DNA from: Sedimentisphaera salicampi
GTDB lineage: Bacteria > Planctomycetota > Phycisphaerae > Sedimentisphaerales > Sedimentisphaeraceae
Assembly: GCF_002117005.1 (NCBI RefSeq)
Contig: NZ_CP021023.1
Span: 930,001 to 994,000, forward strand
DNA length: 64,000 nt
Reading direction: 5' to 3'
Made by a program: the position numbers and the translations under genes. Position 1 is the stretch's first letter. Every line of letters starts with the position of its first letter. Below the pieces are notes generated by a model, which was not told the origin of the DNA, did no database searches, and worked only from the letters and a program-made list of their open reading frames with translations. Positions 13,199 through 19,139 of this stretch are shown here, piece by piece.

Positions 13199-13287
13199 AA
13201 AAAAAAGGACCTGCAAATTTCTGCAAGTCCTTTTATATCAATAAGTAGCGGGAACAGGATTCGAACCTGTGACCTCCGGGTTATGAG
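13199..13287. repeat. Distal attachment-site copy (att) with a fragment of tRNA-fMet
   Basis: Identical over 89 bases to 19051-19139. Bases 13246-13287 equal the 3' 42 nucleotides of the tRNA, starting at the CAT anticodon loop. 13199-13236 equal the terminator hairpin. The tRNA fragment cannot form a tRNA. The poly-A edge has one more A than the other copy, and the group II intron begins just beyond it. Confidence 0.93.
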
Positions 13288-13402
13288 AGTTTTCACTGGT
13301 ATTTTCCCAAATCCTTGTCCTGCCATAACTTGCAGTAATAAAGCAACTTAGCTTTTTTTCTCTACCTATACATATACCACATTTTTACCATATTTGCAAG
13401 TT

Positions 13403-13426
13403 TTTACTGTACAGTTTACTGTACAA
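13403..13426. repeat. Tandem 12-bp repeat inside the left end, likely integrase arm-type sites
   Basis: TTTACTGTACAG followed directly by TTTACTGTACAA. The same pair recurs at 19011-19034 just inside the right att. Paired short direct repeats near both ends of an element suit arm-type binding sites of a tyrosine recombinase; this role is inference. Confidence 0.65.
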
Positions 13427-13482
13427 ATTTCATCTTCCAATATCAACTTGCCTTTTTATTCTTTTTTGAGTAGAATGCTGAT

Positions 13483-14425
13483 ATGTCTACAAAGAATATT
13501 AGAGATTGGTTTAGAAATAGGAAGAACCTGACTGGCATATTTGCCATTCAGACAGCCTCAGTTCCAAAGCAAATTTATTGGTTATTGGACGAAAAAAACA
13601 AGCTCAATTTATCTACATTATTGCCGCGAGATATTTCTATAACTGAATGGCATTCACTATACAGAAAACACAACTACCTTGAAAAGGTTTTATTTGATGG
13701 CGTTTTTCCGCAATTTTACAAAGATTTAAAGAATTCTGAGTTATTGTTGATTTTCAAAGCGTTTCCTTTTTGGTACAACAACTCTACAAATAAAGAGCGA
13801 AAACAGCTCGAAGAAGCAATCAATACTCAAGAAATCAAGGAAGCCGAATATTACATAAGCAACTTCTTTAATTACCTAACTATACAAGCATTAAATTGCG
13901 TTGAAGAAAAAACTTCTTCTGAAGAAAGCTATATCGCAAATATGGATTTTGAAACTAAGCAAGTTGTTCACTTTTTTCTCAGAATTTGGCTTCCTTGTTA
14001 TTTTATCCATGGCGAATATCCTACAACATTGTTCTACAAGGCAAGAAATGGAGACTATAACTCAATTAAAAAAACTTGCGCTAATAGACAAAACAATAAT
14101 TCATAATCCCAGAATCGCAGAGTTCATAGTTAATTTGTATGAAAACGGTAAATACCATTCCTATAATAGCTTTCTCAACTCTTTAAAAAACAAATCACCA
14201 AAGCCGAAAATGAGACAAATTAAGAACAGACTCAGCGCTTTAATTAAGTATTTCTCATCTGGTCTTGAAGATTTTAGTGCACCAGAAATCGCCAAATTAT
14301 TTGACAGCATAGAAAAAGATAGAACCTCTAATCCGGCAGACCCTGACCTCCCTGATTCTCCAGAATCATTTACAAAAGCAATTTACAGAGAAAGCAATAA
14401 AATCAAAGCTCCGAGAAAGAACTAA
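13483..14425 (+). pseudogene. Cargo gene of unknown function, split by a +1 frameshift at an A7 run
   Basis: I do not recognise this protein. The frame from ATG 13483 reads well to '...FYKARNGDYNSIKK', then ends quickly at 14106. The frame one base later continues naturally from 14068 as 'LKKLALIDKTIIHNPRIAEF' to 14425. The join is at a seven-A run (TTAAAAAAACTT); removing one A restores a single protein of about 313 residues. The protein is helical, rich in Lys, Asn and Phe, and has no signal peptide. The region is strongly AT-rich. It could be a real mutation, a sequencing error, or a transcript restored by polymerase slippage on the A-run. It stands alone as the left-hand cargo gene. Confidence 0.7.
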
Positions 14426-14427
14426 TC

Positions 14428-15761
14428 CTAATCAAAGAAGTTTGTTAGCTGGTATCTTGAAGCCAAATAATTAAATGTTTTACTTTCGTCAATTACATTA
14501 TGGGGAATAAGCAAATACTTCCATAGCTTGCCTTCAAAGCTGGATTCAGATAACAAATCATAAAGATACTGCTGCGTGCGGCGGGATTCAGTGAATATAA
14601 CAGCTTTTCTGCTTGCTCCCAGCTCTTCTGCTTTCTCGAATGCTGCTTTAAGGGCATCCTTGAGAGCATTGCCCTTTGTATTGAATTTTATCCTTTGAGA
14701 AAGCTCGAGATAGACCTTGAGCTCATCAGTTTCTTCTTTAATTTGCTCTGGGTCGATATCTGAATTCGAGCTTAGGGAGTAATTTTCTGGCTGGTCTTCT
14801 TCGAGTTCATCGGCATATTCATCAATTCCCTCCAAGTCTTCATCATCTAAAACCTGCACATACTCAGAAATATGCTGAAGCCTTTTAATTAGAGAGTGAA
14901 GCGTGCCGGTGATAGCAAACGAAGAAGAAGCAAGCAGTTTCCTTAGAACGAGGGTTATAAGCGTTCGCTGGCTTTGCGGCAAAGCAATAAGCCTATCCCT
15001 TTTAAGGTATGCTGAAATTATATCATACAACTCAGCCTCTTCCGGAGTTGGGATAAATTCTTGAGTGATAAGAATTCTTTTGGTGAAAGGAACATATTCA
15101 ACAACCTGCTTTCGTAGAGTTCTGCTGCAAAAGGGCTTTATTCGGTCTTTTAGAATGAGGTTTCTTTGGTACTCATTTGATACATTGATAAACTGTTGCC
15201 TGAATGTAGCTGCATCACCAAAAGCATGCTCATCCAATACACTTATAATCCCGTAAAGCTCCATGAGAGAATTTTGGAGGGGTGTAGCAGTTAAAAGAAG
15301 CTTAGAGCAGCTTCCCAGAGCATTGCTGATCTTCTTGGCCATCTTATTCTTGGTCTTATAGACGTTTCTCATTCTATGGGCCTCGTCTATAACAGCGAGA
15401 TCCCATGGAATCATTGAAATTTCTTGGGCCATTCTTGAAGCGAAATTGTAAGAGCAAAGAATAATTTTATTCTGCTGTTTGAATGGCTTAGGATTTCCTG
15501 CTCTTACCTCTTTTTTGTATATGTTGGAATCGATAATAAAAGTTGGCAGGAAAAATTTGCTTTCAAGCTCCTGCTGCCACTGCTTACGCAAGAATGCGGG
15601 GAGAATAAGAATAATGCTGCATCAACCTGATGAGGGTTTAGGTCTACTTTTGAGTTTGAGATAGACTTCAAGAGAGTGTCAATTTCACCAGCAGAGCCTT
15701 CAACGCTAAGGCAATATGCCCAGTATTTACTATGGAAATCTGTGTAATGCTCGTTTATCAA
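14428..15761 (-). pseudogene. Remnant of a SNF2-family DEAH helicase, Walker A region deleted
   Basis: The minus frame from 15761 (TTG start) reads 'VDLNPHQVDAALF', the Q-motif region of a SNF2 ATPase. It then jumps frame at a TTATTC-TTATTC direct repeat (about 15600-15615) into 'ILPAFLRKQWQQEL'. The segment that should hold the Walker A loop (ADEVGLGKT-like) is missing. Downstream motifs survive: 'DLAVIDEAHRMRN' (Walker B), 'LLLTATPLQN' (motif III) and 'KAVIFTESRRTQQYL' (start of motif V/VI lobe). The C-terminal lobe is cut after 'FEGK' and ends in unrelated residues. SNF2 proteins of this type are often found in defence islands, so this may be cargo from a lost anti-phage system. It cannot be an active ATPase. 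Confidence 0.8.
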
Positions 15762-17777: not shown

Positions 17778-17779
17778 CT

Positions 17780-18955
17780 TTATCCAATCATAAAATGTTT
17801 AGGTAAATTAAATTCAACGCAATCAGACATCGCTTCCGGTATAAGAGCAGCATAATGCTTTCTACATATTTCTGGAGAATTGCCCATTAAGGTGGCAATT
17901 TTGTAAAGTGACTCACCTCTTTGCGCCAAGATAGAGCCAAAAGTATGACGAAAGTCTAAGCAAGTCCACTGCAATCCTAGTTTTTTATTTGCATTTGATA
18001 GGTCCCTGCTAAAATTATCAGGGTCGTAAAGGCTCAAACTCTTTGGACTCGGGAAATATAAGTTACCTTTATTTGGACTGGGAACATATTTAATTAGATA
18101 AGGTCTTAATGATGAACTAATTGGAATTGCCCTGTTGGTCTTTGTCTTAGGCTGCCAATATTCTCCATTAATTTCTTTTGCTCGAACTCGTATCATTCCG
18201 TATTTACCAGCCTTCAAGTCAACATCTTTTTTAGTTAGCCATAAGATCTCTTCTCTTCGCATACCAGTATATATTAGCATAGCAACCATCGTTTGAAGCT
18301 GCTTTTTAAAACTGAGCCCATTGATTTGCTCATCGATTTGTTTAAATGAAAGGTAACGAATTTGAGAAGCTCTTTCTATGTATCTCTCAACATTTGCCCC
18401 GGGGTTTATATCTCCCGGCATACGAACTCCCCCTTCTTTCATAGCCCAATTAAATAATCTAACGATAATTTGCCTGAAGTGGTTTGCAGTCTTAGGTGAT
18501 AATCCTCTGGTGCGAACTTGTGCGGATATGAATTCAGATATGCAGGCTGTTGTTATTTTCTCAAAACATGATGCTTCTATTATTTGAGAATACTCTTTCT
18601 TAGCTGCTCCTCGTTTTTTTGGTTTCTTCAAGGCTTTGTCGCTTGGTTTACGGCTTGTAATCTCAAGTTGAGGGCACACAACCCCAAATGTTTGTCGTAG
18701 ATAGTATATTTCAGTTTGCGCGCTCTTTGGGGTCTTTACGGTTCTAATGTGCTTAATGTATTTATCAAGAACTCTGCCTATCGGTGTATTAGTTGGAAGC
18801 GGGTTATCTTCCCCCATGAATAGAGATGTTTCGAACTTACGCAACTTCTCTTTAGCGAGTTGGTAATTTGTTGTTCTAAGGCTTACCCGTTTTTCTTTTT
18901 TTCCTACGTGATAAACCACATAATATGTTTTCCTTCTTTTGATTAAACCTGCCAT
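17780..18955 (-). CDS. Tyrosine recombinase (integrase) of the tRNA-fMet element
   Basis: Catalyses integration and excision at the 89-bp att repeat. It has 391 residues, with an N-terminal arm/SAM-like region and a C-terminal catalytic domain. Visible catalytic residues are the first Arg in 'LIYTGMRREEILWL', the second Arg/His in 'LDFRHTFGSIL', and the nucleophile Tyr in 'CRKHYAAL' (about residue 368). The usual His three residues before the second Arg is Leu here (LDFR instead of HxxR). I start at ATG 18955 after AGAGG. A longer open frame reaches into the att repeat, but its extra residues are not domain-like. The 3' end is 3 bases from the convergent hairpin. Confidence 0.92.
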   Translation of the reverse strand: MAGLIKRRKTYYVVYHVGKKEKRVSLRTTNYQLAKEKLRKFETSLFMGEDNPLPTNTPIGRVLDKYIKHIRTVKTPKSAQTEIYYLRQTFGVVCPQLEITSRKPSDKALKKPKKRGAAKKEYSQIIEASCFEKITTACISEFISAQVRTRGLSPKTANHFRQIIVRLFNWAMKEGGVRMPGDINPGANVERYIERASQIRYLSFKQIDEQINGLSFKKQLQTMVAMLIYTGMRREEILWLTKKDVDLKAGKYGMIRVRAKEINGEYWQPKTKTNRAIPISSSLRPYLIKYVPSPNKGNLYFPSPKSLSLYDPDNFSRDLSNANKKLGLQWTCLDFRHTFGSILAQRGESLYKIATLMGNSPEICRKHYAALIPEAMSDCVEFNLPKHFMIG

Positions 18956-19010
18956 TTTAATACCTCTTAAAATTAAAGTTAGTATTAGTTTGCAGATCCT
19001 TAGGCATTTT

Positions 19011-19034
19011 TTTACTGTACAATTTACTGTACAA
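19011..19034. repeat. Tandem 12-bp repeat inside the right end, likely integrase arm-type sites
   Basis: Two TTTACTGTACAA units in tandem, 17 bases inside the right att repeat and upstream of the integrase. They match the pair at 13403-13426 except for one base. Confidence 0.65.
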
Positions 19035-19050
19035 ATCGCTAATTTTAACC

Positions 19051-19088
19051 AAAAAAAAGGACCTGCAAATTTCTGCAAGTCCTTTTAT
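19051..19088 (-). terminator. Rho-independent terminator of the tRNA-fMet gene
   Basis: On the minus strand AAAAGGACTTGCAG pairs with CTGCAAATT...-side sequence ending GCAGGTCC, then eight Ts. The stem arms are AAGGACTTGCA and TGCAGGTCCTT. The hairpin is part of the att repeat. Confidence 0.85.
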
Positions 19089-19139
19089 ATCAATAAGTAG
19101 CGGGAACAGGATTCGAACCTGTGACCTCCGGGTTATGAG
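19051..19139. repeat. Proximal attachment-site copy (att) inside the intact tRNA-fMet gene
   Basis: Second copy of the 89-bp direct repeat, identical to 13199-13287. It covers the anticodon loop through the 3' end of tRNA-fMet and the terminator behind it. Confidence 0.93.

Follow-up and report, generated by a model that had tools for sequence, protein, structure and literature searches.

The genome of Sedimentisphaera salicampi (RefSeq GCF_002117005.1) contains, within the 64,000 nucleotides of contig NZ_CP021023.1 analysed here (positions 930,001 to 994,000 of the forward strand; hereafter the window, numbered from its first letter), a unit of 5852 bp that is very probably a rolling-circle integrative element, perhaps mobilizable, and not a prophage. 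The unit sits in an initiator tRNA gene (tRNA-fMet) and encodes a tyrosine integrase, a candidate excisionase with a helix-turn-helix (HTH) motif and a two-tyrosine rolling-circle initiator of the HUH type (Rep), inside whose gene a double-strand origin is proposed. An initial annotation of this DNA had named the perfect 89-bp repeat at both ends, the intact tRNA-fMet on one side, the integrase, the excisionase-like gene, the HUH Rep and the use of the unique initiator tRNA gene as the site, and each of these observations is borne out by the data below.

Insertion site and element boundaries

The element is bounded by a direct repeat at 13199-13287 (attL) and 19051-19139 (attR), both read on the minus strand, identical at 89 of 89 positions and spaced 5852 bp from start to start. 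The repeat comprises the tRNA gene from the anticodon arm through the 3' end, together with the terminator: attR is the half brought by the element, which completes the working gene, and attL is the displaced original half. The completed gene, a tRNA-Met(CAT) at 19097-19172 on the minus strand, is the sole tRNA gene of the window and is also matched by RF00005. Initiator tRNAs are distinguished by three G-C pairs in the anticodon stem, and we take the anticodon arm of this gene, GGGCTCATAACCC, to mark it as one of them. When the 3.19-Mb single-contig genome was searched with the tRNA plus terminator, the intact copy, the displaced half (88 bp) and a single further match of 49 bp at 78% were returned; since only one copy was full-length, the insertion site is taken to be the sole initiator tRNA gene. 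The 3' part of the gene is thus repeated at both ends while the tRNA remains intact, as expected of an element targeted to a tRNA by a tyrosine recombinase. The element has a GC content of 37.1%, against 45.7% for the window. The 11-mer TTTACTGTACA has four exact copies in the window (both strands counted), at 13403, 13415, 19011 and 19023. They form one plus-strand pair at each element end (13403-13425 and 19011-19033), a layout expected of integrase arm sites, for which these repeats are candidates.

An uninterrupted site in a relative, which the initial annotation had proposed to seek, is present in a genome of the same genus (G001), where the tRNA and terminator lie in one piece (96% over 121 bp) and the two genes of the window's left flank are in place at 82-84% identity. 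The right arm of the element beside attR (19019-19049) resembles the G001 chromosome at an equal distance from the tRNA (locus L043, 9969-9999), with a local score of 38, whereas 2000 mononucleotide shuffles reached at most 29; perhaps G001 retains here the scar of an older element, or else attP has taken up chromosomal sequence. On the other side, a group II intron (11387-13198) abuts attL; its maturase matches TIGR04416 at 4.1e-128 and the Rfam D1-D4 models also match. Class C introns insert after terminators, and this intron, lying directly beside attL, has the displaced tRNA terminator as its 5' exon. The maturase has one copy in the genome, with three further matches at 36% identity.

The integrase subfamily in Phycisphaerae

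The integrase gene (17780-18955, minus strand; the likely start is the ATG at 18955, by inspection) matches PF00589 at 2.6e-12 and phrog_1 at 2.3e-42, and its product retains R233, R336 and Y368, invariant in 15 aligned sequences. Five integrases are 46-58% identical to it, and nine others only 16-20%. With six integrases of the subfamily as the query, 49 of 397 genomes of the class Phycisphaerae match at E<=1e-40, in 58 places, which for this class does not bear out the initial suggestion that such an element is unusual in planctomycetes. The best 45 of the 58 places were examined as loci (L numbers), the 13 weakest, mostly partial matches, being left out. ARAGORN places an initiator tRNA in 28 of the 45, always in the same orientation and with its 3' end facing the integrase 5' end; the anticodon arm is GGGCTCATAACCC in 24 of them and GGGCCCATAACCC in four (L127, L146, L147 and L156), where a C replaces the usual T before the anticodon. 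One further locus, L137, has an initiator tRNA cut by a run of N, bringing the number to 29 of 45, which is far beyond chance if a genome of several Mb carries about one such gene.

Seven of the elements at tRNA-fMet are complete, with exact repeats of 17-89 bp and sizes of 5852-10981 bp: that of the window (5852 bp), L049 (9513 bp), L052 (10981 bp), L062 (8179 bp), L126 (9068 bp), L129 (7538 bp) and L135 (7908 bp). The edge of the repeat coincides in each of the seven with the third or fourth base of the GGGCTCATAACCC arm. In many other loci the element ends are hidden by contig breaks in metagenome-assembled genomes.

The Rep protein

Rep (16279-17370, plus strand) has zinc-finger-like cysteines at its N-terminus. 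The HxH and Y..KY..K motifs are invariant across 15 aligned homologues, and Pfam gives a weak match to PF23343 (REP_ORF2-G2P; 1.1e-5). An HUH motif combined with two tyrosines in the initiator is how superfamily I of rolling-circle initiators is defined in PMC3218068, and Rep has both. The structure model (predicted local distance difference test, pLDDT, 80.7; residues 1-23 and 26-43 under 50) gave 138 matches in BFVD at E<=0.001, the best at 1.8e-6, and the named ones (five among the 50 listed) are microvirus replication initiators; in the PDB, viral HUH Rep domains appear from 0.05. No relatives of the Rep sequence were found among solved structures, nor did it match any of 72,556 plasmid records or 50,697 phage records. 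Matches at E<=0.001 occur in 3 of 59 relatives, 23 of 397 Phycisphaerae and 19 of 392 genomes of the phylum, the window's own genome being counted each time and some genomes belonging to several sets. Several homologues lie in elements with an integrase and a tRNA repeat, also at tRNA-Pro, Leu, SeC, Ser and elongator-type Met, so that the family is not confined to chromosomal settings without att repeats, the finding that would have spoken against the initial proposal. Other homologues, some cut by contig ends, have no integrase or repeat in the stretch available. The site of one Rep-family element (L058, 9191-19294; 32-bp repeat) appears to be a tRNA gene called selenocysteine by ARAGORN. Apparent tandem elements at an elongator-type tRNA-Met occupy positions 153-10359 of L005 (G050), in the order first integrase, second copy of a 44-bp repeat, and second integrase with ribbon-helix-helix (RHH) genes and a Rep homologue. 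The contig L095 (1-4746) encodes a distant member of the Rep family, and its 141-bp terminal repeat indicates that it is probably a 4.6-kb circle; it was the only one of 14 whole contigs checked as excised circles to have a terminal repeat.

The likeness of the Rep model to microvirus initiators, the naming of PF23343 after ORF2/G2P and the probably circular 4746-bp contig would suit a defective provirus of a small single-stranded DNA phage (microvirus or filamentous) that lysogenizes by means of an integrase. However, no virion gene (capsid or coat, Zot) was found when the element's proteins, all frames of at least 70 amino acids taken for genes, were scanned with Pfam, PHROGs and NCBIfam. 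Rep is also without a match among the phage records, as are Rep (with three Reps as queries) and the integrase in pattern-seeded scans of IMG/VR, and relatives of the element carry restriction and CRISPR cargo. A provirus is therefore highly improbable. Of the initial description as an integrative plasmid or a relative of small phages, the first part survives as a rolling-circle integrative element; the second was rejected, for the element as a whole, for want of virion genes among the scanned proteins, despite the microvirus-like Rep model.

A proposed origin inside rep

The initial annotation had described a hairpin-rich region adjacent to Rep. The hairpins are real, but the two strongest (16332-16378, plus strand) lie within the Rep frame and not beside it. 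They are consecutive, with perfect stems of 11 bp (16332-16358) and 8 bp (16360-16378), the former being one of two perfect stems of at least 10 bp (loop 3-12) in the window, and stand directly 5' of the sequence CTTGAA (16384-16389, plus strand; Rep codons 36-37). The poorly ordered N-terminal stretch of Rep ends here in a conserved L-E...N, and the DNA is kept beyond the needs of the protein. Of 22 zinc-finger-type Rep genes, 17 have an in-frame CTTGA located 51-99 nt ahead of the finger (the distance in L045 was measured by inspection). In a set of 20 such genes that was not chosen for CTTGA, and in which the near-duplicate pairs L047/L057 and L091/L092 were reduced to one each, 16 have the motif in the expected interval (out of frame in L059), compared with a mean of 3.4 and a maximum of 9 in 1000 draws from a synonymous-codon null; the commonest 6-mer of the interval is CTTGAA (14 of 20). 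Among the 17 loci chosen for CTTGA, which include both near-duplicate pairs, every one of the 17 has T at the wobble position two codons before CTT, a base that was not selected for, and in 15 the 45 nt upstream of the motif rank among the most stable 3.6% of their own locus.

Since CTTGA recurs beyond what codon usage explains, we conclude that a double-strand origin probably lies within rep, at the hairpins and CTTGAA. A candidate nick site beside a hairpin, a further mark of superfamily I, is present as judged by sequence conservation. The site resembles the nick sites of phiX174 and pC194, and the phiX174 nick site lies in gene A.

Modules, cargo and state of the element

Next to rep lies the HTH gene (17490-17702, plus strand), an excisionase candidate that matches HTH_17 at 7e-5 and phrog_66, annotated as 'excisionase and transcriptional regulator', at 1.1e-6; several relatives have a homologue of it after their replication gene. 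The window element, L049, L052 and L062 share the order of HUH Rep then HTH gene, with the integrase beside the tRNA, and in L062 the same integrase and HTH gene accompany a divergent Rep without the zinc-finger motif. In L126, L128, L129 and L135 the Rep slot is filled by a Rep_trans-like protein. The four group together by hidden Markov model; PF02486 (Rep_trans) matches are all below the cut-off (L128 3.9e-5, L129 0.0036, L135 0.0016), and the L126 protein has none at 0.01. Behind the first fMet element of L126 (11880-16389) lie a second Rep_trans-like gene, a second orfA and a gene that by eye is serine-recombinase-like, perhaps forming a tandem array at the initiator tRNA.

These Rep_trans-like proteins also bear on the possibility that the unit is an integrative and mobilizable element (IME) in which Rep acts chiefly as a non-canonical relaxase using the conjugation apparatus of a helper, with replication of the circle secondary. 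This overlaps with the rolling-circle integrative element preferred here, from which it is set apart by what Rep mainly does; we hold it tentatively, as having appreciably less than an even chance. It would be consistent with NikA-like RHH proteins at the left end of L129 (1.7e-7, above the cut-off) and L049 (2.6e-4, below it), and with the VirD4-like coupling protein genes beside the integrase of L136. However, the same RHH proteins match the antitoxin family TacA1 as well, the Rep_trans matches are subthreshold or, for L126, absent, and L136 is open at one side, so that its element may not include the coupling genes. Among the scanned proteins of the window element there was no NikA-like or coupling protein, and the genome has no match to PF02534 or PF03135.

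Cargo was surveyed in 14 loci of the integrase subfamily, picked from the best-scoring ones, and the counts rest on these; seven are complete and the others open at one side, L088 and L133 lack an initiator tRNA nearby, and L087 and L134 have a bare half only. The inspected loci often contain defence genes (restriction, Cas9, DRT8, Lamassu). Type III restriction systems occur in L049 and L062 and a type I system in L088; L134 has a methyltransferase. In L087 (3299-10800), the genes for Cas9 and Cas1 and an array of repeats about 2.8 kb long, with a period of 65-66 nt, lie between the integrase and the HTH/Rep genes. DRT8 with a PDDEXK partner occurs in L129, LmuA and LmuB (Lamassu) in L132, PDC-M36A in L128 and L135, and a NACHT-LRR protein in L126 (by Pfam; no PADLOC match); L136 has the coupling-protein genes, and there is no defence match in L052 or L133. 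The seven complete elements encode 13 cargo proteins of at least 300 amino acids (Int, Rep and orfA excluded), of which six match PADLOC at 1e-10; two of the 13, from L052 and L135, were left out of the scan. Among 46 flanking proteins of the same minimum length, counted by family and not by protein, 36 PADLOC families matched, mostly PD-T4-6 models among the 25 listed, and none matched more than one protein at 1e-10.

The cargo of the window element is the remnant of a DISARM DrmD SNF2-type helicase (14428-15761, minus strand) with an interrupted frame. It matches NF038318 at 4.8e-98 over profile positions 87-438 of 868, less than half, with 329 bits against a cut-off of 950, and PADLOC DrmD at 4.4e-96, with a stop codon within the matched stretch. 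To its left, orfA (13483-14425, plus strand) is split over two overlapping frames, each with its own match to the orfA profile (2e-56 and 5e-47), and is for this reason probably broken; other members of the profile lie in L046, L047, L050 and, in two copies, L126, and in these loci orfA adjoins the replication gene. Such decay, with an excised circle that we infer, might point to a dead genomic island, an old insertion no longer mobile in which integrase and Rep are kept by chance. We regard this as unlikely, given that the att repeats are 100% identical over 89 bp, that the integrase, HTH gene and Rep are in open frames and that the Rep motifs, origin motif and arm repeats are all present. 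The cargo and orfA appear decayed, while the integrase, the HTH gene, Rep and the proposed origin seem to be intact.

A model for the element cycle

In the model that we propose, the integrase would recombine attP with the initiator tRNA gene at its anticodon arm. By supplying its own tRNA 3' half and terminator, the element would keep the essential gene whole and shift the old 3' half to the opposite end. The excisionase, which lets the integrase release the circle, is probably the HTH protein. Rep would then nick this circle at CTTG^AA (16384-16389), just 3' of the two hairpins in its own gene, attach through one of its two tyrosines and start rolling-circle replication; the resulting single-stranded circles would allow a gain in copy number and possibly mobilization through the conjugation pore of another element. 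Members of its family in Phycisphaerae have the integrase, the HTH gene and, in most cases, the site in common; initiator (HUH Rep or Rep_trans-like) and cargo are exchanged between them, and defence genes are often carried.

Several observations weigh against a rolling-circle integrative element of this kind. Sixteen of the 45 loci have no initiator tRNA at the expected place: three (L087, L131 and L134) have a bare tRNA half and 13 have neither, two of these being at contig ends. The usual histidine of the integrase HxxR motif is a leucine (L333) in six of six subfamily integrases, and both Rep (26.0 bits against 27.8) and the HTH protein score under their Pfam cut-offs. The Rep model has no PDB match at E<=0.001, the best being a geminivirus Rep domain at 0.05. 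With regard to the origin, L050, L053, L061 and L056 lack the motif in the expected interval, L059 has it out of frame, L055 has no stable hairpin (rank 0.93) and that of L089 is weak (0.115), and near-duplicates swell the set of 17 loci. The right flank of G001 is not syntenic with that of the window, and the circle with an attP junction, as said above, is inferred. Finally, since neither the PF02534 coupling protein nor the VirB4 family PF03135 occurs in this genome, no helper is visible.

Relation to known systems and implications

The actinomycete integrative and conjugative elements (AICEs) of the pSAM2 type mostly have a tyrosine integrase acting at a tRNA 3' end, an excisionase and a rolling-circle Rep related to those of phiX174 or pC194, according to PMC3218068. 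The window element has in common with them the tRNA-site tyrosine integrase, the excisionase or excisionase-like protein and the rolling-circle Rep. In contrast to AICEs, it belongs to a different phylum, no match to an FtsK/SpoIIIE-type Tra protein was found among its scanned proteins, and no match to the RepSA or RepAM models appeared. Streptococcal IMEs, according to PMC5704250, use relaxases related to the rolling-circle initiators of plasmids or small phages (MobT/Rep_trans, PHA00330, Rep_2). Both they and the elements described here are small, integrase-bearing and equipped with a protein related to rolling-circle initiators; the present elements differ in their initiator tRNA site, the alternation of two initiator types beside one integrase subfamily, the origin-like site in rep, the frequent defence cargo and their occurrence in Planctomycetota. 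With the initiators of Microviridae (VP4/gpA type) Rep shares the model fold and the HUH and two-tyrosine motifs, but in place of virion genes, none of which were found, the element has an integrase and a tRNA site. A CTTGA nick-like site within the initiator gene is a further parallel, to gene A of phiX174. By this comparison, the Phycisphaerae family would work like AICEs and streptococcal IMEs, but the Tra gene of AICEs was not found among the scanned proteins, and mobilization is putative. A literature search, with most subscription journals outside it, yielded no account of the exchange of anti-phage systems among planctomycetes, no paper on a genomic island joining an integrase, an initiator tRNA and rolling-circle replication, and no related paper on planctomycete integrative elements with rolling-circle replication and a tRNA.

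A more far-reaching possibility, to which we give somewhat less than an even chance, is that such elements are small rolling-circle defence shuttles present throughout the class at the single initiator tRNA gene. They would combine one integrase/excisionase pair, a slot for unrelated initiators, an origin in rep and a turnover of cargo (restriction, CRISPR-Cas9, DRT, Lamassu, NACHT), with Rep serving as the relaxase that moves them between cells. The origin proposed within rep would permit a sharp and cheap nicking test. The alternation of HUH Rep and Rep_trans-like proteins beside the same integrase suggests that what the element needs is rolling-circle initiation, and not one particular protein, and the targeting of the initiator tRNA gives a fixed place in Phycisphaerae genomes at which to look for mobile defence cargo.

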